Below, in pieces: positions 41,505-50,700 of a stretch of DNA of 64,000 bases. The stretch spans positions 930,001 through 994,000 of the forward strand of contig NZ_AP027080.1 in NCBI RefSeq assembly GCF_030295405.1. Direction: 5' to 3'. This DNA is from Mesoterricola silvestris (lineage in GTDB: Bacteria > Acidobacteriota > Holophagae > Holophagales > Holophagaceae). The notes under the pieces are model-generated. The model had not been told where the DNA came from. It saw only the letters and a list, made by a program, of their open reading frames with translations, and made no database searches. The position numbers and the translations under genes were made by a program. How positions within the stretch are numbered: position 1 is the first letter of the stretch; each line of letters starts with the position of its first letter.

Positions 41505-42530
41505 TTACTCTCCCACCGCAAGGGCGGGCTGCTGCTGGGTCATGCAGTGCATGGCCCCGAAACCCCAGATGAAGTCACCGCTGTAGATACCGACGATCTC
41601 GCGGTCCGGGAAGAGGGAGGCGAGGAGGTCCAGGGCCACCCGGTCGTTGGGGTCGTTGAACACCGGAACCAGGACGAGGCCGTTGGCGATGTAGAAGTTC
41701 CCGTAGCTGGCGGGGAGCCGGATGCCCCGGTAGGTGAGGGGCCCGGGCAGGGGCAGCTCCACCACCTCCAGGGGCCGGCCGTCCTGGTCCGTGGCGGCCC
41801 GCAGGCGCCGGAGGTTCTCGGCCAGCGGGGCGTGGTTGGGGTCGTCCCGGCGGGGCTCCACCACCGTCACCACCGTGCGCTCGCCCACGAAGCGGGAGAG
41901 GTCGTCCACGTGGCCGTGGGTGTCGTCGCCCCGGATGCCGTCGCCCAGCCAGATCACCTTGCGGATGCCCAGGTGCTCGGCGAAGGCCTTCTCGTACCCC
42001 TCCCGGCCCAGGCCGGGGTTGCGCTCCTGAACCTTGCTGAGGAGACACTCCTCGGTGGTGAGCAGGGTGCCGCGTCCGTTGACGTCGATGCTGCCGCCCT
42101 CCAGGACCATCCCGGCGCGCCGTCCCCGGGCGCCCGCGGCGCGGGCCATGAAGCCCGCCACCTCGGCGTCCTGCTGGAAGTTGTCGTACTTGGCCCAGGC
42201 GTTGAACCGCCACTGCACCGCGCCCAGGGCGTCCCCGTCCCGCACGAAGCAGCACCCGGAATCCCGCAGCCAGATGCGGTCCGTGGGCAGCGCGTGGAAG
42301 CGCACGTTGGCCGAAAGGGCCCCGGCGCGGTCCAGCACGCCCCGGGCCCGGGCCTCCATGGCGGCGTCGCGCACCAGGATCTCCACCCGCTCCCTGCGGC
42401 CCAGGTGGCGGATGATCTCGGCGAAGACGAAGGGGATGGCGGCGAACTTGCCGGGCCAGTCCATGCGGTTGTGGGGCCAGGCCACCCAGGTGGCGGCATG
42501 GGTCTCCCATTCGGCGGGCATGCGGATCAT
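41505..42530 (-). CDS. aguA: Agmatine deiminase
   Basis: 341 residues of the PAD/agmatine deiminase fold. It converts agmatine to N-carbamoylputrescine. Motifs: MPAEWETHAATWVAWPHNRM at the N-terminus, TDRIWLRDSGCCFV, VLEGGSIDVNGRGTLLTTEE, DTHGHVDDLSRFV (catalytic His) and the nucleophile Cys329 in FGAMHCMTQQQP. The ATG at 42530 lies seven bases after the aguB stop, forming an aguB-aguA pair. Confidence 0.95.
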   Translation of the reverse strand: MIRMPAEWETHAATWVAWPHNRMDWPGKFAAIPFVFAEIIRHLGRRERVEILVRDAAMEARARGVLDRAGALSANVRFHALPTDRIWLRDSGCCFVRDGDALGAVQWRFNAWAKYDNFQQDAEVAGFMARAAGARGRRAGMVLEGGSIDVNGRGTLLTTEECLLSKVQERNPGLGREGYEKAFAEHLGIRKVIWLGDGIRGDDTHGHVDDLSRFVGERTVVTVVEPRRDDPNHAPLAENLRRLRAATDQDGRPLEVVELPLPGPLTYRGIRLPASYGNFYIANGLVLVPVFNDPNDRVALDLLASLFPDREIVGIYSGDFIWGFGAMHCMTQQQPALAVGE

Positions 42531-42537
42531 GGCCGCC

Positions 42538-43440
42538 TCAGTCCAGGAACCGGCGGGGCAGGTCCCCGTAGGCGTCGATGCGGCGGTCCCGCAGGAAGGG
42601 CCAGTTGCGCCGGGTGGTCTCCAGCAGGTCCAGGTCGATGTCGCCCAGGAGGATCTCCTCCTTGTCGTGGCTGGCCTGGGCGAGGATGCGCCCGAAGGGG
42701 TCCGCCAGGAAGGAGCCGCCCCAGAATTCCAGGCCCAGGCCGGGAGCCTCGTCGCCCCGGATGTTGCCGGTCTCGAAGCCCACCCGGTTCACGCCGGCCA
42801 CGAAGACCCCGTTGGCGATGGCGTGGCCGCGCTGGACGGTGCGCCAGGCGTCGTACTGGGCCTCGCCGTATTCGGCCTTCTCCGCCGGGTGCCAGCCGAT
42901 GGCCGTGGGGTAGAAGAGGGTGGAGGCCCCCTGCATGGCCGTGAGGCGCGCCCCTTCGGGATACCACTGGTCCCAGCACACCAGGGTGCCCAGCCTGCCG
43001 AAGGTGGTGTCGTGGGCCTTGAAGCCCAGGTCCCCGGGGGTGAAGTAGAACTTCTCGTAGTAGAGGGGGTCGTCCGGGATGTGCATCTTGCGGTAGAGGC
43101 CCCGGATGGAGCCGTCGGTCTCCAGCACCGCCAGGGTGTTGTGGTAGAGCCCCGCGGCCCTGCGCTCGAAGAGCGAGGCCAGGATCACCACCCCGCGCCT
43201 GCGGGCCACCTGGCCCAGGAGGTCCGTGGCCGGCCCGGGGATGCTCTCGGCCAGGTCGAAGAGGGCGATGTCCTCCCGCTGGCAGAAGTATTGGGTCTGG
43301 AAGAGTTCAGGAAGACAGACCACCTGGGCGCCCCGGGCGGCGGCCTCCTCCACGAAGGCCGCGGCCCGGCGGAGGTTCTCCGCCGGCTCGGGCCCGCAGG
43401 CCATCTGGATCAATCCGACTCGGTAACGCTTGGGGGACAA
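42538..43440 (-). CDS. aguB: N-carbamoylputrescine amidase
   Basis: 300 residues of the nitrilase superfamily; it hydrolyses N-carbamoylputrescine to putrescine, completing the agmatine route with AguA. The catalytic triad is visible: Glu in VCLPELFQTQYF, Lys in LYRKMHIPDDP and Cys in TLVCWDQWYPEGAR. The start is the TTG at 43440 (SPKRYRVGLIQM), with AGAGG six bases upstream; no nearby ATG suits the family N-terminus. It begins 38 bases after the Ehr small-subunit gene. Confidence 0.95.
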   Translation of the reverse strand: MSPKRYRVGLIQMACGPEPAENLRRAAAFVEEAAARGAQVVCLPELFQTQYFCQREDIALFDLAESIPGPATDLLGQVARRRGVVILASLFERRAAGLYHNTLAVLETDGSIRGLYRKMHIPDDPLYYEKFYFTPGDLGFKAHDTTFGRLGTLVCWDQWYPEGARLTAMQGASTLFYPTAIGWHPAEKAEYGEAQYDAWRTVQRGHAIANGVFVAGVNRVGFETGNIRGDEAPGLGLEFWGGSFLADPFGRILAQASHDKEEILLGDIDLDLLETTRRNWPFLRDRRIDAYGDLPRRFLD

Positions 43441-43478
43441 GGCGGGCCTCTGAAAAAAAGCGAACCCCCAAGAATACC

Positions 43479-44240
43479 CTACTTCACCCGGTCCAGGAGC
43501 CTGAGCAGCCCGTCCAGGATCGTCAGGGGGTGGGGCGGGCACCCCGGGATGAAGAGGTCCACGGGGATCCCCGCCCCCACGGCGCCGCAGAGCTGCTCCT
43601 CCTGGTCCCGGTAGGGGCCGCCGCTGATGGCGCAGGCGCCCACGGCGATGACCAGCTTGGGATCGGGGGTGGCGGCCAGGGTCTTGGCCAGGGCCAGCTC
43701 CATGTTCCGGGTGACGGGGCCGCAGATGAGCACCGCGTCGGCGTGGCGGGGGCTGGCCACCACCTGGATGCCGAAGCGGCCCAGGTCCCAGCCGATGGTG
43801 CCCAGCACGTTCACGTCCACTTCGCAGCCGTTGCAGCCGCCCGCGCTCACCACCCGCAGCTTGAGGGAGCGCCCGAAGAGGGCCAGGGCCTTGGCTTCCA
43901 GGGCCCCGGCCACCCGGTAGGCCTCGCCCGGGGCCGCGAGCAGGTCCTCCCGGGCGCGCGTGGCCAGGCGGAACTCGTCCGTGAAGCGCAGGGTGTGCTC
44001 GGGGCAGGCGTCGGTGCAGGCCGTGCAGAACAGGCACCGGCCCAGGTCCAGGGTGATCCGGGGCCCCTCGCCGATGGCCTCGGTGGGGCACGCGTCCACG
44101 CAGGCCCTGCAGCCCCCGGGGCAGGGCTCCCCGGGCAGCTCCGGCAGGCCCCGGAAGCGGTCCGGCATGGGCGGGACCTCCTCCGGGAAGGCGTTGGTGC
44201 GGTGCCCTTGCCGCAGTCGGGAAGCCAGGATCTTCAGCAT
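43479..44240 (-). CDS. Ehr/hydrogenase-4-related small subunit fused to a 2x4Fe-4S ferredoxin domain
   Basis: 253 residues. The N-terminal ~90 residues contain two ferredoxin motifs (CRACVDACP and CLFCTACTDACP). The C-terminal ~150 residues form the NuoB/HycG-type [NiFe]-hydrogenase small subunit: GGCNGCEVDVN, VGACAISGG and IPGCPPHPLTILDGL supply the four cysteines of the proximal (N2-like) cluster. In E. coli these are separate proteins (HyfH and HyfI). It carries electrons to the large-subunit site. The ATG overlaps the large-subunit stop (ATGA), and it is last of the six Ehr genes. Confidence 0.9.
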   Translation of the reverse strand: MLKILASRLRQGHRTNAFPEEVPPMPDRFRGLPELPGEPCPGGCRACVDACPTEAIGEGPRITLDLGRCLFCTACTDACPEHTLRFTDEFRLATRAREDLLAAPGEAYRVAGALEAKALALFGRSLKLRVVSAGGCNGCEVDVNVLGTIGWDLGRFGIQVVASPRHADAVLICGPVTRNMELALAKTLAATPDPKLVIAVGACAISGGPYRDQEEQLCGAVGAGIPVDLFIPGCPPHPLTILDGLLRLLDRVK

Positions 44241-45751
44241 CAGAGGTCGAACCCGCAGTAGGAGAGGTTGAAGCTCTTGTTGCACAGGGGGAAGTCGGAG
44301 ATCTCCTCCCCCCGCAGGGCCAGCGCGAGCCCGGTCCAGTTGTGGAAGGAGGGGTCGACGATCTTGTAGCGGGAGAAGCGCCCGTCCCCGTCCGTCACGG
44401 CCAGGTGGACCACTTCCCCGCGCCAGCCCTCGGTCATGCCCAGGGCCAGGTGGTCCGGGGGCAGGGCCCGGGGGGCCTGGACCTCGATGGGGCCGGGGGG
44501 CAGGGCCCGGAGCACGTCCAGGGCCCAGCGCAGGAACTCCACGCTGGACTGGATCTCCTGGGCGCGCACCCGGGCCCGGGCGGCCACGTCGCCCATGTCC
44601 TCGTTCACGCCCGGGATGGCGGCCTCCTGGAAGGGGCCGAAGGGGTGGGCCCGGCGCACGTCCCGGTCCAGGCCGCAGGCCCGGCCCGCGGGGCCCACCA
44701 GGCCGATGTTCTTGGCCTGGGCGGGGATGACCCGGCCGGTGCCCTCGAGTCGCGCCAGCACCGAGGGGGTGTGCCAGATGAGGTCCACGGCGTTGAGGGT
44801 GTCGGCCGCCGTGGCCTCCAGGCGCCCGCGCAGATCCTCCACCCGGGCCGCGTCCACGTCGAAGCGGACCCCGCCGGGCTTGAGCAGGTCCCTCCCCAGC
44901 CGGCTCCCGCAGAGCGCGGCGGTCATGTTGAGCCAGTCCCCCCGCAGGCGCCCGCAGTAGGACATGGTGGGCAGGAAGCCCACGTCCCCGGCGATGGCGC
45001 CCAGGTCCCCGGTGTGGTTGGCCAGGCGCTCCAGTTCCAGGGCCACGGCCCGGATGAGGTTGGCCCGCAGGGGCACCTCCAGGTCCAGCAGGCCCTCCAT
45101 GGCCAGGCAGTGGGCCCACAGGTGGCCGATGGTGGTGTCGCCCGAGGCGGTCTCCATGTGCTTGAGGGTGGACCGGTGGGGCCCCCCGGCCAGGGTCCGC
45201 TCGATGCCGCGGTGCTGGTAGCCCAGGGCGATCTCCAGGTTGAAGACCGTCTCGCCGCTGCACTGGAACCGGAAGTGGCCGGGCTCGATGACCCCGGCGT
45301 GCACCGGGCCCACGCCCACCTCGTGCACCTGGCGGCCTTCGACCCGGTAGAAGGGGGCCACGCCGGGCTGGATGGGGGCGGTGCGGTCCCAGGCGTCCCG
45401 GGGGGTGCCCAGGGCGCGGTGGTACCGCACGGGCTTGAACCAGGGGTGGCCGAAGATCTTCAGGCCGCGCTGCTCGGCGATCTCCCGCTCGAAGAGGTGG
45501 GCCTCGGGGCACCGGGGCGTGATGGAGGGGAATCCGGCGGCGGGGATGGTGGTGCGCACCACCCGGAGCACCGGTCCCGCCCCGGAGGCGAGCACCGCGA
45601 AGCCTTCCAGGTCCTGCCCCGCGAAGAGGGCCACGAGGCGGTGGTCGTCCCCGCAGGCTTCCACGATGAATTCCTGGAAGTCCGGGAAGGGGAGCGCCGG
45701 CACCTCCGAGAGGGGGATGGCGGTGCCGTTGGAGATGGGCGCGCTGGTCAT
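44240..45751 (-). CDS. hyfG: Ehr/hydrogenase-4-related large subunit lacking the NiFe-binding cysteines
   Basis: 503 residues, a fusion of the NuoC/30-kDa-like N-terminus (1-135) and the NuoD/HycE-like large-subunit domain. VGPVHAGVIEPGHFRF, YQHRGIERTLAGG and ELERLANHTGDLGAIAGDV are family motifs. In true hydrogenases CxxC follows the HRG motif and another CxxC sits near the C-terminus. Here residues 195-215 (LKHMETASGDTTIGHLWAH) have no CxxC and the C-terminal motif reads DPSFHNW (466-472), so no NiFe site can form. That is the mark of Ehr (energy-converting hydrogenase-related) complexes, whose redox partner is unknown. Confidence 0.9.
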   Translation of the reverse strand: MTSAPISNGTAIPLSEVPALPFPDFQEFIVEACGDDHRLVALFAGQDLEGFAVLASGAGPVLRVVRTTIPAAGFPSITPRCPEAHLFEREIAEQRGLKIFGHPWFKPVRYHRALGTPRDAWDRTAPIQPGVAPFYRVEGRQVHEVGVGPVHAGVIEPGHFRFQCSGETVFNLEIALGYQHRGIERTLAGGPHRSTLKHMETASGDTTIGHLWAHCLAMEGLLDLEVPLRANLIRAVALELERLANHTGDLGAIAGDVGFLPTMSYCGRLRGDWLNMTAALCGSRLGRDLLKPGGVRFDVDAARVEDLRGRLEATAADTLNAVDLIWHTPSVLARLEGTGRVIPAQAKNIGLVGPAGRACGLDRDVRRAHPFGPFQEAAIPGVNEDMGDVAARARVRAQEIQSSVEFLRWALDVLRALPPGPIEVQAPRALPPDHLALGMTEGWRGEVVHLAVTDGDGRFSRYKIVDPSFHNWTGLALALRGEEISDFPLCNKSFNLSYCGFDL

Positions 45752-47181
45752 GCCTGTCCCTCCACCAGGAGCGCCGCCTTCGTCAGCAGGGAATGGAGGG
45801 GGCCCGGGAGCCAGGTGCCCAGGATCAGGGCCAGGGCGAGCGCCAGCACCAGGGGGAAGGTGAGGCCGAAGGTGTCCTCGTAGTGGGTGCGCACGCTGGG
45901 GGGATTGGGATTGCCCTGCAGCACGGGCAGGATCACGGAGCCCATGGCCGTGAAGATGGCGGCCAGGAGCGCCAGGAAGAGCGAGCCTGCCAGGAGGTGG
46001 CCCCCGCCCAGGGCGGTGGACGCGATGCCGAAGATGCTGGTGAAGGGGGCGAAGGGGGGCGAGCCCACGATGGCCAGGAAGCCCAGCAGGAAGCACCAGC
46101 CCGACACCGGCAGGCGCCGCATGGCGCCGCTCACGTCGGCCAGGCTCTTGCTGGAGAAGCTGCGCACGATGTTGCCCGAGCCCAGGAAGAGCACGCTCTT
46201 CACCAGGGCGTTGGCCGCCACGTGGAAGAGGGCGAAGAGGGTGGCCTTGCCCCCGATGCCCACCCCGAAGGCCAGGATGCCCATGTGCTCCACGCTGGAG
46301 TAGGCCAGGAGCCGGCGCAGGTCCCCCTGGCGGATCATGAAGACGAAGGCCCAGGCCATGGACACGAGCCCCATGGCCACCAGCAGCTCCCGGCAGAAGC
46401 CCGCCAGGCCCGCGGCGGCCATGATGGAGAAGAACCTCAGCAGGGAAAGGAAGGCCATGGTGGTCACCCCCCCCGCGAGGATGGTGCCCACGATGCCCGG
46501 GGTCTCGCCGTAGGCGTCGGGCTTCCAGGTGTGCATGGGGGCCAAGCCCATCTTGGTGCCGTAGCCCACCAGGAGCAGCACGAAGCCGGCCTTGAGCCAG
46601 GGTACGGGCATGGCCCGGGCGTTGGCCACGAGCCGGTCGATGTAGATGGGCTCGCCCAGGCCGCCCTGCTGGGCCGCGTACGCCACGAAGAAGGTCCCCA
46701 GGAGCGCCAGGGCCATGCCCACGGAGCAGATCAGGAGGTACTTCCAGGTGGCTTCGAGGCTGCGCTTGTTCTTGTTGTAGTAGAGGAGGGGGGTGGTGGC
46801 CAGGGCCGTGGTCTCCATGCCCACCCACAGCACGCCGGGGTGGCGGGAGGTGGCCACAAGGGAGGCCATGCCCAGGAAGCCCAGCATGGACACCCCGAAC
46901 ACCCCGAAGTTGCGCTCCATGCGCAGGGCGAGGTAGGCCGGGGCGTACAGGGAACAAAGAGTGAAGATGGTGGACACCACCAGGAGCATCCACCCCCCCA
47001 GGGGGTCCAGGCGGAGCCAGGCGTCGGGCTGGGGCTGGAAGGAGCGGGTGAGGGCCAGCAGCACCAGGGCCAGGTGCAGCACCCCGGCCACGGGCAGCAC
47101 CCGGGCCCGGTGGAGGCCGGGCTTCATGAACCACACGATGGCCGCGGCGGCGAGGGGCATGAGGGTGAGGGCGAGGATCAC
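45748..47181 (-). CDS. hyfF: Ehr antiporter-like membrane subunit, HyfF type
   Basis: 477 residues, multi-pass. The GTG at 47181 is used; the stop overlaps the next ATG. It is an Mrp/NuoLMN-type subunit: GMETTALATTPLLYYNKNKR carries the conserved Glu of TM5, YGTKMGLAPMHTWKPDAY the Lys and His of the broken helix region, LLAYSSVEHMGILAFGVGIG the TM11 signature and NALVKSVLFLGSGN the second Lys. All residues thought to conduct ions are kept. Confidence 0.92.
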   Translation of the reverse strand: MILALTLMPLAAAAIVWFMKPGLHRARVLPVAGVLHLALVLLALTRSFQPQPDAWLRLDPLGGWMLLVVSTIFTLCSLYAPAYLALRMERNFGVFGVSMLGFLGMASLVATSRHPGVLWVGMETTALATTPLLYYNKNKRSLEATWKYLLICSVGMALALLGTFFVAYAAQQGGLGEPIYIDRLVANARAMPVPWLKAGFVLLLVGYGTKMGLAPMHTWKPDAYGETPGIVGTILAGGVTTMAFLSLLRFFSIMAAAGLAGFCRELLVAMGLVSMAWAFVFMIRQGDLRRLLAYSSVEHMGILAFGVGIGGKATLFALFHVAANALVKSVLFLGSGNIVRSFSSKSLADVSGAMRRLPVSGWCFLLGFLAIVGSPPFAPFTSIFGIASTALGGGHLLAGSLFLALLAAIFTAMGSVILPVLQGNPNPPSVRTHYEDTFGLTFPLVLALALALILGTWLPGPLHSLLTKAALLVEGQA

Positions 47182-47185
47182 GGCG

Positions 47186-47821
47186 TCAGTCCTTCAGGTG
47201 CGCCAGGCGGTGGGTGTCCTGGGAGTCGAAGGCGGTCTGGATGTGGTTGATGACGATGCCCATGACGAAGATGCCCACCACCAGGTCCAGCAGCACCCCC
47301 GTCTCCACCAGGAGCGGCATCTGCTTGACCAGCAGCAGGCTGAAGAGGTAGACCCCGTTCTCCAGCACCAGGTAGCCCACCACCTGCAGCAGGGCCCGCT
47401 TGCGGGTGGTCAGGAGCAGGAAGCCCGTGAACAGCGCCATGATGGAGGCCGGCACGAAGAGCGTGCCCAGGTTGCCGGGCTGGAGGGGCAGGCGCCGGGC
47501 CAGGATGAAGGCCATGCCGGTGCCGGCGGCGGCCATGACGAGGGTCAGGGTGTAGCCCACGTACGGTTCGGGCTCCCGCTGGGGCTTCATGCGGTCCTGG
47601 GCCCGGTTCAGCATGGCGGGGATCACCACGCCCTTGATGGCCGCGGTGCTGAAGGCCATGAGGAGCACGTGGAAGGGCCAGTGGTCGTGCATGAGCAGCA
47701 GCACCATGGCCAGGAGCCCGCCCTGGAGCGCGGCCAGCTGGATGCACTTGCTGACGCGGCTGCTGGCCACCAGCATGAAGTTGATGAGCATGATCGCGGC
47801 GAGCAGGAGGTTGGGAGTCAT
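47186..47821 (-). CDS. hyfE: Ehr membrane subunit, HyfE type (NuoK-like)
   Basis: 211 residues with about seven helices. NLLLAAIMLINFMLVASSRV opens the protein; AAIKGVVIPAMLNRAQDRMK and KRALLQVVGYLVLENGVYLF are HyfE hallmarks, with membrane Glu in the latter (LENG) matching the proton-path Glu of NuoK. The start at 47821 lies three bases after the hyfC stop. It forms part of the ion channel linking the peripheral arm to the antiporter subunits. Confidence 0.9.
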   Translation of the reverse strand: MTPNLLLAAIMLINFMLVASSRVSKCIQLAALQGGLLAMVLLLMHDHWPFHVLLMAFSTAAIKGVVIPAMLNRAQDRMKPQREPEPYVGYTLTLVMAAAGTGMAFILARRLPLQPGNLGTLFVPASIMALFTGFLLLTTRKRALLQVVGYLVLENGVYLFSLLLVKQMPLLVETGVLLDLVVGIFVMGIVINHIQTAFDSQDTHRLAHLKD

Positions 47822-47824
47822 GGT

Positions 47825-48754
47825 TCAGGCCAGGAGGAGGAGAAGGAAGCCGAAGGTGCCCGACACCACCGCGGCGATGAGGGCCTGGGAGACGCGGCGC
47901 ATGCGCAGCCGGGCCATGATGGATTCCAGCACGCCCACCCCCGCGGCCAGGAGGACCATGCCCCCCAGGAAGGCGGGCCAATCGATCCACCAGGTTCCCC
48001 GCAGGGGCAGGCAGAGCTTGACCACCAGGGCGCCCAGGACCCAGAGCTTGAGGCTGGCGCCGTAGAGCACCGCGGCCAGGGGCGGCCCGGAGTGGTCCAG
48101 CACCATCGCCTCGTGGATCATGGTGAGTTCCAGGTGGGTGTTGGGGTCGTCGAAGGGGATGCGGCAGTTCTCCACGAGGAACACGATCACCCAGGCCGTG
48201 AGCACCAGGGCCAGGGGACCCCCCGCCGCCCTCCAGCCCTGGCCCGCGGCCGTGAGCATGGGGGCCAGGGAGGGCGAGCCCGCCAGGCGCGCCAGGGTGG
48301 CCAGGCCCATGAAGAGGGCCGGCTCGGCCAGCACCGCGAAGGTCACTTCGCGCGCCGCGCCCATGCCCTCGAAGGCCGACCCCGTGTCCAGGGCCGAGAG
48401 CACCACGAAGAAGCGCGCCACACCGAAGAGGTAGGCCAGCACCACCGCGTCGCCCGCGAAGGAGACCGGGGCCGTGGCCGCCCCCATGGGGATGAGGAGC
48501 GCGGCGGTGAAGGGCACCGCCACCGCCGCCGCCGGCCCCGCCAGGAAGACCCCGGTGGTGGTGCGGCTGAACACGGCGCCCTTGCGCAGGAGCTTGGCGA
48601 GGTCGAAGTAGAGCTGGAAGACGGGGGGTCCCACCCGGCCGGCGAAGAGGGCCTTCACCTTGTTCACGATCCCCGGCAGCAGCGGGGCCAGGGCCAGGGT
48701 CAAGGCCATCTGGGCCAGGAGCACGAGGGCGGGTTGCACCAGGTTCCGGATCAT
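47825..48754 (-). CDS. hyfC: Ehr membrane subunit, HyfC type (NuoH-like)
   Basis: 309 residues, eight or so helices. The NuoH/HycD family features are GIVNKVKALFAGRVGPPVFQ and LAKLLRKGAVFS near the N-terminus (charged loop contacting the small subunit), and FLVENCRIPFDDPNTHLELT, the conserved cytosolic loop with Glu/Asp. The ATG at 48754 overlaps the hyfB stop (ATGA). It anchors the soluble arm to the membrane. Confidence 0.93.
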   Translation of the reverse strand: MIRNLVQPALVLLAQMALTLALAPLLPGIVNKVKALFAGRVGPPVFQLYFDLAKLLRKGAVFSRTTTGVFLAGPAAAVAVPFTAALLIPMGAATAPVSFAGDAVVLAYLFGVARFFVVLSALDTGSAFEGMGAAREVTFAVLAEPALFMGLATLARLAGSPSLAPMLTAAGQGWRAAGGPLALVLTAWVIVFLVENCRIPFDDPNTHLELTMIHEAMVLDHSGPPLAAVLYGASLKLWVLGALVVKLCLPLRGTWWIDWPAFLGGMVLLAAGVGVLESIMARLRMRRVSQALIAAVVSGTFGFLLLLLA

Positions 48755-50700
48755 TGCAGGGTCCAGGCGAAGAGGGCCACGAGGGTGAGCACCACGTAGA
48801 GGAGGTAGATGGGCAGGTGTCCCGCCTGCAGGAAGCGCAGCCAGCTCAGCGCCGAGGCCACGAAGGAGGCGGCGGGGTTGAGGCCGCGGTCCAGGAGGGT
48901 GTCGGGGGCCTGGGACTGGAAGCGGCTCTCCCGGGGGAAGAGCCCCTGGATGCGGGGGATCCGTTCGATGGGCAGGAGCAGCCACCGGAACCCGTCCGTG
49001 AGCATCCGGGAGAAGCTGGAGGCGGTGTACTGGATGCGGGCCGTGGGCAGGGCGTACCCGCAGTCCCAGGTGCCGGTGCGGGTGGAGGGCGCCCTGCGGA
49101 TGGCCTGCCACACGGCGAGGCCCATGGGGAGGCCGATGAGGGCCATGAGGGACAGGGCCTTCAGATTGGCCAGGCTCCCCAGGGCGGGCAGGCCCGGGCC
49201 CAGCTCCCGGGTGGCGGCCTGCAGGGCCGGGGCCAGGACGGCGGGGACCAGTCCGATGAAGAGGCAGATGCCGGCCAGGACGGCCATGGTCGCGGTCATG
49301 CTGCGCGGGGATTCGTGGGCCGGGTGGGCCAGGTCCCGGCGGGGCTCGCCCAGGAAGACGATGCCGTAGGCCCGGGTGAAGCAGGCCACGGTGAGGGCCC
49401 CGATGACCGCCAGGGAGGCCAGGGTCACCACGGACCACACCCAGCCGTTGGGCTGGGTCCCCCGGAAGGCCCCCAGGTACATGAGCCACTCGCCGGCGAA
49501 CCCGTTGAAGGGCGGCAGCGCGCAGATGCCGAAGGCCCCCGCCAGGAACAGGAAGGCCGTGCGGGGCATGGGGTGGGCCAGCCCCCCCAGGCGCTCCAGG
49601 TCGCGGGTGCCCGTGGCGTGCATCACCGACCCCGCTCCCATGAAGAGCAGGGGCTTGAGGAGGGCGTGGTTGAGCAGGTGGAAGAGGGCGCCGGCCCCGC
49701 CCAGCATCACCAGCGCGGGCAACGCCAGGGTCTTGCCGGCCAGGGCCAGCCCCAGGCCCAGGGCGATGACGGAGACGTTCTCGATGGAGCTGTAGGCCAG
49801 GAGGCGCTTGAGGTCCTTCTGCCCCAGGGCGAAGGCCATGGACATGATCCCCGAGGCCGCGCCCAGGCCCGTGAGGAGCCCCGCCCACCACAGGGGCGGA
49901 TCCGGGGTCAAGGCGATGATCCGCAGGACGCCGAGGATCCCCATCTTGAGCATGAGGCCGGAAAGCAGGGCGCTGACGTGGCTGGGGGCCGCCGCGTGGG
50001 CCCCCGGGAGCCACACGTGGAGCGGGCCCACCCCGGCTTTCAGAAGGAAGCCCCCCAGCAGCAGGAGGAAGGCCGCGGTGCCCGCGGGGGTGGATGCGAA
50101 GCCCGGGCGCAGGGGGCCCAGGTCAAAGCCCGTGCCCGTGCCCAGGGCCAGCAGGGCGAAGCCCGCGAAGAGCATGAGCGCGCCGGTGTGGGAGGCCACC
50201 AGGTAGATCCACCCGGCCTCCCGCACCGCGGCGTCCTGGTCGCTGGTGGTGACCATGAGGAAGGCCAGGATCGCCATGATCTCCCAGCCGAAGAGGAAGA
50301 GTACGGCGTTGGCCGCGGCGCAGAGGAGCACCATGCAGGCCACCGATGCCCCGAAGAAGAGCCGCAGGGCCGGGGCCGTGTCCGCGTGGGCGCCGTCGCT
50401 CCAGTAGCCCTCGGCGTAGAAGGAGAGGATGGCGGGCACCAGGGTGGCCGGCACCAGGATGAAGGTCCCGATGGGATCCCCCCGGAAAAGGAAATGGGCC
50501 CCCGGGAGGGCCCATCGCAGTTCGGCCTGCCAGGTCAGCCCCCCATACAGGACGCTCCCGGCGAGCCCCAGGGCACACAGGGCGCTGCCCACAAGCATCC
50601 AGGAGGCCATTCGTCCGCCCCGCGCGGGCCGGACGAGTCCCGGCACCCCCGAGAGGGCCGAAAGGAGAAGCGCGCTGAAATAGAGACTCTGAAGCACCAT
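48751..50700 (-). CDS. hyfB: Ehr antiporter-like membrane subunit, HyfB type (NuoL/N-like)
   Basis: 649 residues from the ATG at 50700. It is the largest membrane subunit and the first gene of the Ehr operon. Conserved ion-path residues: Glu in LFGWEIMAILAFLMV, Lys in FLLKAGVGPLHVWLPGAH, KDLKRLLAYSSIENVSVIAL and Lys/His in HLLNHALLKPLLFMGAGSV. GFAGEWLMYLGAF and the C-terminal amphipathic part are like those of HyfB. The ribosome site is weak (GGCGGAAC). The 118-base gap to the divergent DUF1275 gene should hold both promoters. Confidence 0.92.
   Translation of the reverse strand: MVLQSLYFSALLLSALSGVPGLVRPARGGRMASWMLVGSALCALGLAGSVLYGGLTWQAELRWALPGAHFLFRGDPIGTFILVPATLVPAILSFYAEGYWSDGAHADTAPALRLFFGASVACMVLLCAAANAVLFLFGWEIMAILAFLMVTTSDQDAAVREAGWIYLVASHTGALMLFAGFALLALGTGTGFDLGPLRPGFASTPAGTAAFLLLLGGFLLKAGVGPLHVWLPGAHAAAPSHVSALLSGLMLKMGILGVLRIIALTPDPPLWWAGLLTGLGAASGIMSMAFALGQKDLKRLLAYSSIENVSVIALGLGLALAGKTLALPALVMLGGAGALFHLLNHALLKPLLFMGAGSVMHATGTRDLERLGGLAHPMPRTAFLFLAGAFGICALPPFNGFAGEWLMYLGAFRGTQPNGWVWSVVTLASLAVIGALTVACFTRAYGIVFLGEPRRDLAHPAHESPRSMTATMAVLAGICLFIGLVPAVLAPALQAATRELGPGLPALGSLANLKALSLMALIGLPMGLAVWQAIRRAPSTRTGTWDCGYALPTARIQYTASSFSRMLTDGFRWLLLPIERIPRIQGLFPRESRFQSQAPDTLLDRGLNPAASFVASALSWLRFLQAGHLPIYLLYVVLTLVALFAWTLQ

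Follow-up and report, generated by a model that had tools for sequence, protein, structure and literature searches.

Cluster loss beside a nearly constant pocket and ion path among relatives of the Ehr complex of Mesoterricola silvestris

Introduction

What does a relative of the energy-converting hydrogenases do once its hydrogen metal site has gone, and is electron transfer a necessary part of it? This question is raised by six genes of Mesoterricola silvestris in the window, by which we mean the whole stretch of 64,000 nucleotides that was analyzed (positions 930001 to 994000 of contig NZ_AP027080.1, in a genome of 4.99 Mb). Ehr complexes have been described as NiFe-less relatives of the group 4 hydrogenases in which ion transport is suspected to be linked to a redox reaction (PMC6349859, PMC10284858, PMC10432482). 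An Ech-hydrogenase-related complex has been named in Geobacter sulfurreducens (GSU0739-45, with EhrA, EhrC, EhrL, and EhrS; PMC7894505), and the Ehr of comammox Nitrospira and ammonia-oxidising archaea, which lack the CxxC motifs, are of unknown function (PMC10284858, PMC10432482). It has long been asked by what means complex I couples its electron transfer to ion pumping, and a natural, widespread branch that retains the full ion path and a former active-site pocket under strict conservation, yet discards NiFe, N2, or the ferredoxin clusters, would set the two halves of the machinery apart.

Results

The six genes, all on the minus strand at 43479-50700 of the window, are arranged in the Ehr operon order of hyfB, hyfC, hyfE, hyfF, large subunit, and small subunit (Table 1), and the locus has its nearest relatives in the Holophagaceae. 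The product is a six-subunit Ehr (energy-converting hydrogenase-related) complex, a kind already known but poorly understood. Judged from the aligned proteins, its architecture resembles that of respiratory complex I and the hydrogen-making enzymes, with the hydrogen metal site absent. The HyfB-like protein gave 496 bits against the NCBIfam hydrogenase 4 subunit B model, which is under the cut-off of 667. The small subunit is 229 aa long from an inner Met (44168) and 253 aa long from an ATG at 44240, which lies 24 codons upstream and overlaps the large-subunit stop; the latter is probably the start, and relatives share the same N-terminal helix. Agmatine deiminase-like and N-carbamoylputrescine amidase-like genes lie downstream of the small subunit on the same strand (41505-43470), and such genes were also observed near Ehr in two other loci (L008 and L174).

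Table 1. Coordinates of the Ehr operon and its sites in the window, with the Ehr-linked regulator genes of other loci
Feature	Position	Strand	Remark
hyfB-like antiporter subunit, 649 aa	48751..50700	-	Proton_antipo_M E 2.7e-47; alternative start 50787
hyfC/nuoH-like subunit, 309 aa	47825..48754	-	NADHdh E 9.1e-29; residues mapped to HycD
hyfE-like (NuoK-related) subunit, 211 aa	47186..47821	-	NCBIfam hydrogenase 4 membrane subunit 77.9 bits, under cut-off
hyfF-like antiporter subunit, 477 aa	45748..47181	-	Proton_antipo_M E 1.6e-40
Large subunit EhrL, 503 aa	44240..45751	-	NuoC-like N-terminal domain and NuoD/hydrogenase fold, without NiFe ligands
E156, beta1-beta2 loop proton-transfer Glu	45284..45286	-	Equivalent of HycE E193 and MbhL E21; retained
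SGDT (203-206), first NiFe ligand pair replaced	45134..45145	-	D205 invariant in Ehr
DPSFHNW (466-472)	44336..44356	-	Aligns with HycE AATYANW, a non-ligand stretch
N491-K492	44276..44281	-	Near-invariant, Ehr-specific; adjoin the emptied ligand site
SYCG (497-500), second NiFe ligand position	44252..44263	-	S497 and G500 invariant in Ehr
Small subunit EhrS	43479..44240	-	2[4Fe-4S] ferredoxin domain fused to NuoB/HycG domain
First ferredoxin motif, C16-x3-C20-x2-C23-x3-C27	44088..44123	-	
Second ferredoxin motif, C45-x2-C48-x2-C51-x3-C55	44004..44036	-	
N2-type ligand span, C112, C115, C179, C210	43539..43835	-	Hydrogenase-type CxxC
HTH_17-PTS EIIA fusion beside Ehr in other loci	L023:1723-2448		Also L010, L012, L013, L015-L017, L019-L021, L027, L039, L040, L045, L047, L053, L068

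The large subunit matched Pfam Complex1_49kDa (E 1.2e-36) together with a weak NuoC-like N-terminal domain, and its nearest solved relative was HycE of E. coli FHL (E 1.5e-48), followed by complex I and MBH. Its AF2 model (pLDDT 90.5) was aligned with 7z0s_E over 482 residues with a Z of 41.2 and an rmsd of 2.6, and with the complex I 49 kDa subunit with a Z of about 37. When the large subunit was aligned with HycE, HyfG, NuoCD, and its three paralogues in the genome, no cysteine stood at any of the four NiFe ligand positions, which are occupied by S203 and T206 in SGDT and by S497 and G500 in SYCG, and neither of the two NiFe-binding CxxC pairs of a group 4 [NiFe] hydrogenase was found; C499 in the C-terminal NLSYCG is off register against the second pair of HycE (DPCYSC). 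Because all four ligands are replaced, the complex is not a hydrogenase. The loss of the NiFe site had been claimed in the original prediction, and the alignment with HycE, HyfG, and the genome's own group 4 hydrogenase bears it out; of the two motifs offered as the remains of the site, TASGDTTIGH was chosen correctly, its SGDT being the first pair, whereas DPSFHNW has to give way to SYCG as the second. The protein ends three residues past the former second pair and has no HycE-type C-terminal extension, an absence that does not discriminate against the extension-less members of group 4.

The missing NiFe cysteines are not a matter of chance, because the same motifs recur in 161 aligned Ehr large subunits (107 with N2 or with the N2 state undetermined, 44 that lack N2, and 10 from a second Ehr class). 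D205, S497, G500, and N491 were always present in this set, with K492 at 98-100% and E156 at 99-100%; in the 44 N2-less sequences, D205, S497, G500, N491, R444, W472, and E156 were found in 100% and K492 in 98%, and the second class had the same pattern of pocket conservation. Across the family, the invariant residues of the Ehr pocket are E156, G204-D205-[ST], R444, N471-W472, N491-K492-S493, S497, and G500, essentially unchanged also where N2 is absent. Regarding the residues shared with hydrogenases, a proton exchange between HycE E193 and the terminal Ni cysteine has been proposed (PMC9474812), MbhL E21 has the role of a proton-transfer Glu (PMC7684303), and R444 aligns with R478, the canopy Arg of HycE (PMC9474812). 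The His and Tyr of NuoD that hold the quinone headgroup (PMC7684303) were also looked for in the large-subunit alignment, and no equivalents of His38 and Tyr87 were found.

The small subunit keeps 12 Fe-S cysteines (numbered from the inner Met in the 229-aa form), so that N6a, N6b, and N2 are complete. We take N6a to consist of the first three cysteines of motif 1 and the last of motif 2, with the names of the three clusters following Nqo9 of complex I. In N2, the cysteines follow the CxxC pattern of hydrogenases, and the tandem CC of NuoB in complex I is absent. All three clusters were intact in the window copy and in every sampled Holophagaceae relative.

In the membrane arm, HyfB keeps E140, K221, K252, H341, H345, K349, and E404, HyfF keeps E123, K210, and K328, and HyfE keeps K63, E154, and D179; conservation was family-wide for E140, K221, K252, and E404 of HyfB and for the residues named in HyfF and HyfE. 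HyfC retains through the family E136, E144, E195, E209, and E215, which correspond to HycD E130, E138, E189, E203, and E206, and of these E130, E138, E189, and E206 are named as E-channel residues in the FHL structure (PMC9474812). The position of HycD E201 is occupied by H207 in every aligned Ehr HyfC. All aligned members carry D203, H207, and H214 in an Ehr-specific DDPNTHLELTMIHE loop of HyfC, at positions taken by L/V, Glu, and Gln in hydrogenases; by homology, this loop should face the emptied pocket. The N2-less complexes whose membrane subunits could be checked also keep the ion-path residues. The residues observed would make the membrane arm a complete ion translocator of the complex-I/Mrp type, with transport being what they suggest. 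In other respects, too, the original prediction described the complex well: its naming as Ehr agrees with a six-gene operon for HyfB/C/E/F-type membrane subunits and a NiFe-less large subunit, the four N2-type cysteines of the small subunit are there along with eight of the ferredoxin type, and so are the Glu and Lys residues of HyfB and HyfF.

A scan yielded 70 related loci from many phyla, and most of the relatives surveyed were MAGs. A large-subunit profile at E 1e-60 matched 17 of 395 Bacteroidota genomes and, in the window's phylum, 112 of 396, a count whose lowest score tier takes in NuoD and hydrogenases. The small-subunit search, with order membership as given by the search taxonomy, matched 14 of the 241 genomes that share an order with a Cytophagales MAG and 68 of the 295 that share one with a Marinilabiliales MAG; of these 68, two are weak matches. 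Cluster states were assigned by alignment to 156 small subunits after the removal of duplicates. All three clusters were present in 72 of them; N6a was lost in 31 (one further being masked by N), N6a together with N2 in 42, N2 alone in 6, and N6a together with N6b in 3, and N2 had three cysteines in 1. The 48 relatives in which the N2 ligands were gone were all Bacteroidota genomes, and among 44 loci fetched from two Bacteroidota orders, 43 were without N2 and one (L196) keeps it. The replacement of the N2 cysteines was by D, C, D, and N in 32 of the 48 and by D/A/D/N, D/V/D/N, D/D/H/S, and similar sets in the others.

The cysteines were lost mostly cluster by cluster, in that loss of the first three of motif 1 was often joined by loss of the last of motif 2, with the N6b ligands staying; Gastranaerophilales, with shifted cysteines, were a partial exception. 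On the large-subunit tree, loss of N6a was found in separate clades (a Geobacter branch, Gastranaerophilales, an Ignavibacteria-like group, a Bacteroidia group, and single lines), with a count of 8 changes that includes L026, which was scored as lost by misalignment though its four cysteines are present. Loss of N2 fell into a single Bacteroidia group, within which one row, weakly supported, keeps the cluster. A pseudogene or assembly error was rejected as the cause in the N2-less group, because the replacements are alike in 48 genomes, few of which contain in-frame stops. When an N2-less small subunit (L050) was modelled, it had the NuoB/HycG fold (pLDDT 87.8; Z 15.6 against 7z0t_G, 138 residues aligned), and in two Cytophagales the genes for the large subunit, small subunit, and HyfC were scattered over the chromosome (L155, L156, L162, L163) yet intact. 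In L155 and L156, a transporter gene of SulP-type appearance (by eye) lies within about 7 kb of the small-subunit gene; a link between the two was discarded, as it was absent from the other N2-less loci.

The large subunits of the second Ehr class (L122, L123, L165-L172), which is common in the window's phylum, scored about 380-450 bits against the profile and end in NKSFNLSYSGxD or close variants, with the same pocket motifs; in L168 and L172, the ferredoxin domain is gone and N2 is kept. A more distant NiFe-less large subunit (L173), in which GST and TFGLSV replace GD[ST] and NKSF and the N2 cysteines are kept, represents another class with a degenerate pocket. A Myxococcota Ehr (L062:11545-12222) has PGSP in place of PGCP and thus three N2 cysteines, which recalls the three-Cys proximal cluster of MBS. 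Since they were repeatedly lost across the family, the Fe-S clusters are individually dispensable, and by alignment no redox centre is universal among the sampled Ehr.

Ehr was reportedly analyzed by Marreiros et al. and Batista et al. in 2013. A text search of the literature, within whose reach those founding analyses did not lie, gave no mention of cluster loss in Ehr. The losses may have been noted before; what is new here, with that proviso, is the family-level pattern of cluster loss against a constant pocket and ion path.

Discussion

The survey agrees with the published NiFe-less relationship and weakens redox coupling as a statement about the whole family. The original prediction held that the complex should pump ions by an unknown redox reaction. 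With no redox centre universal, N2 being gone in 48 of 156 small subunits and both ferredoxin clusters in 3, such a description cannot hold family-wide; for the window copy, which like its relatives has the full wire, it is possible. The pocket and ion path are unchanged without N2 or the ferredoxin clusters, and the electron wire is therefore not a universal requirement of Ehr. From this invariance and the repeated cluster loss, we infer that the core function is ion translocation by way of the pocket and the membrane arm, with the Fe-S clusters as an optional driver or sensor, a reading that would be the most economical for the family and to which we give a little under an even chance. The retained fold of the N2-less small subunit, the intact though scattered genes of the two Cytophagales, and the lack of a redox enzyme as a constant neighbour point the same way. 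Ion translocation, as cation/proton exchange or gated conduction, would be coupled to events in the emptied pocket, either protonation or the binding of a ligand, with the adjoining beta1-beta2 and HyfC loops taking part, and the Fe-S wire would be an add-on that serves as a regulator or redox sensor and, in three-cluster lineages such as that of the window, as an optional driver. Ehr may thus be no redox enzyme at heart. It is conceivable, although on balance doubtful, that Ehr are ion transporters of complex-I architecture in which the ex-hydrogenase module is a ligand- or proton-operated gate and the Fe-S clusters a dispensable sensor.

Several considerations count against ion translocation as the core. 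The window copy and its family relatives keep all 12 cysteines, and electron transfer is therefore probably selected here. Furthermore, the N2-less state, as seen confined to Bacteroidota, could be a local change of function, the Asp/Cys/Asp/Asn site might hold some metal centre, and the G. sulfurreducens Ehr subunits are more abundant on formate (PMC7894505), which could reflect a redox role. The complex may then be a redox-driven ion pump in the window's lineage, in which electrons from a low-potential donor (ferredoxin or a dehydrogenase) would pass through N6a, N6b, and N2 to an acceptor in the emptied pocket and drive the antiporter subunits, the function having been lost later in the Bacteroidota Ehr. 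We consider this a serious contender that falls somewhat short of an even chance. Beyond the formate response, it is supported by the three intact clusters in the window and all sampled Holophagaceae relatives, by the hydrogenase-type N2, by the retention of the proton-transfer Glu E156 and the canopy Arg R444 (roles from PMC9474812), and by a Mo-oxidoreductase-like gene, recognized by eye, between the large and small subunits of a Geobacter locus (L012). However, the pocket is equally invariant without N2, and its conserved chemistry is therefore independent of N2 electrons; moreover, most loci are without a linked donor or acceptor enzyme, and a search beside the Ehr loci for a constant redox partner (formate dehydrogenase, NuoEF, or another donor or acceptor) revealed single cases only. 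For the window's own complex, a redox drive is about evenly balanced between likely and unlikely.

A quinone-reducing variant of complex I, that is, a ferredoxin:quinone oxidoreductase, is improbable, although the large subunit scores higher against NuoD than against the hydrogenase models of NCBIfam and its fold is close to that of the 49 kDa subunit. The NuoD His38 and Tyr87 equivalents are absent, N2 has CxxC and not tandem cysteines, so that both of these features of respiratory complex I are missing from the window Ehr, and the equivalent of HycD E201 is His in all aligned Ehr. Quinone, which the original prediction had entertained as an acceptor, thus finds no site of the complex I type in the sequence. 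Besides Ehr, the genome carries a true group 4 hydrogenase marked by RVCGIC and DPCYSC (L003 at 2323868) as well as two different NuoD genes (L001 and L002 at 4636682 and 4969772, respectively), and Ehr is therefore no simple stand-in for any of them.

P. furiosus MBS (Mbx) resembles Ehr in having lost NiFe and kept the ion-pumping arm, and a sulfane-sulfur reductase of this kind, with an incompletely ligated proximal cluster, would be in keeping with the three N2 cysteines of the Myxococcota Ehr. MBS, however, keeps two of the NiFe cysteines and has a three-Cys proximal cluster (PMC7684303), whereas the window Ehr has no cysteine at the four aligned NiFe positions and four N2 cysteines with hydrogenase spacing; the defining features of MBS are lacking, and we regard this function as very unlikely. 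A cryptic hydrogenase or decaying relic, for which the origin in the group 4 lineage by sequence and fold could be cited, is scarcely credible in view of the strong conservation across many phyla, the intact frames, the near-invariant non-Cys residues at the ligand positions, and the separate true group 4 hydrogenase in the same genome.

Among the known systems, E. coli FHL-1 (Hyc) and Hyf are the best solved relatives of the large and small subunits and have the same E-channel residues; unlike Ehr, FHL has the four NiFe cysteines and a C-terminal extension, its HycF and HycG are separate proteins, and it includes a formate dehydrogenase. The Mrp cation/proton antiporter shares the antiporter fold with HyfB and HyfF, in which the TM5 Glu and TM7 Lys pairs are present, but the NuoH-like subunit and the hydrogenase-type large and small subunit module distinguish Ehr from it, and none of MrpE, MrpF, and MrpG is among the six operon proteins. 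The G. sulfurreducens Ehr, compared by its description, has NuoL-like and HyfE-like membrane subunits and large and small subunits like those of the window (PMC7894505). In three Geobacter MAG loci (L010, L012, and L016), which stood in the sequence comparison in place of GSU0739-45, the large subunit is 57-59% identical to that of the window, and the gene order is shared. A Geobacter branch (L015-L017, L020) has lost N6a, whereas the window has three clusters. The Nitrospira and archaeal Ehr are likened to that of the window by the description of their missing CxxC motifs.

If ion translocation is the core, most of the Bacteroidota Ehr sampled, from two orders, would have a pocket without a conventional electron path, in effect a "complex I" without a redox reaction, and such non-redox Ehr would allow coupling to be studied without electron transfer. 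As to annotation, Ehr genes should not be labelled as hydrogenases, and redox pump is no safe label for them either.

The commonest neighbour of Ehr was an HTH_17-PTS EIIA (PtsN-like) fusion, whose IPH motif contains a conserved His; it was found in 17 loci of several phyla (Table 1) and in 14 of the 34 loci with at least 1.2 kb of upstream sequence, where it lies upstream of or divergent from hyfB. K+ transport in E. coli is under the control of EIIA(Ntr) proteins, and the Ehr-linked EIIA therefore fits a role in ion transport; the fusion is a possible regulator that ties Ehr to phosphotransfer and ion homeostasis. In many Geobacter loci, HyfB is present in extra copies and the HTH-EIIA gene is linked, whereas the window has one HyfB and no linked EIIA. 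A search of the window's genome gave no clear ortholog of the fusion but a weak match of 29% elsewhere, and we excluded it as a part of the window system. In an Omnitrophota contig (L027), there are two tandem Ehr operons, the second of which is preceded by the HTH-EIIA gene.
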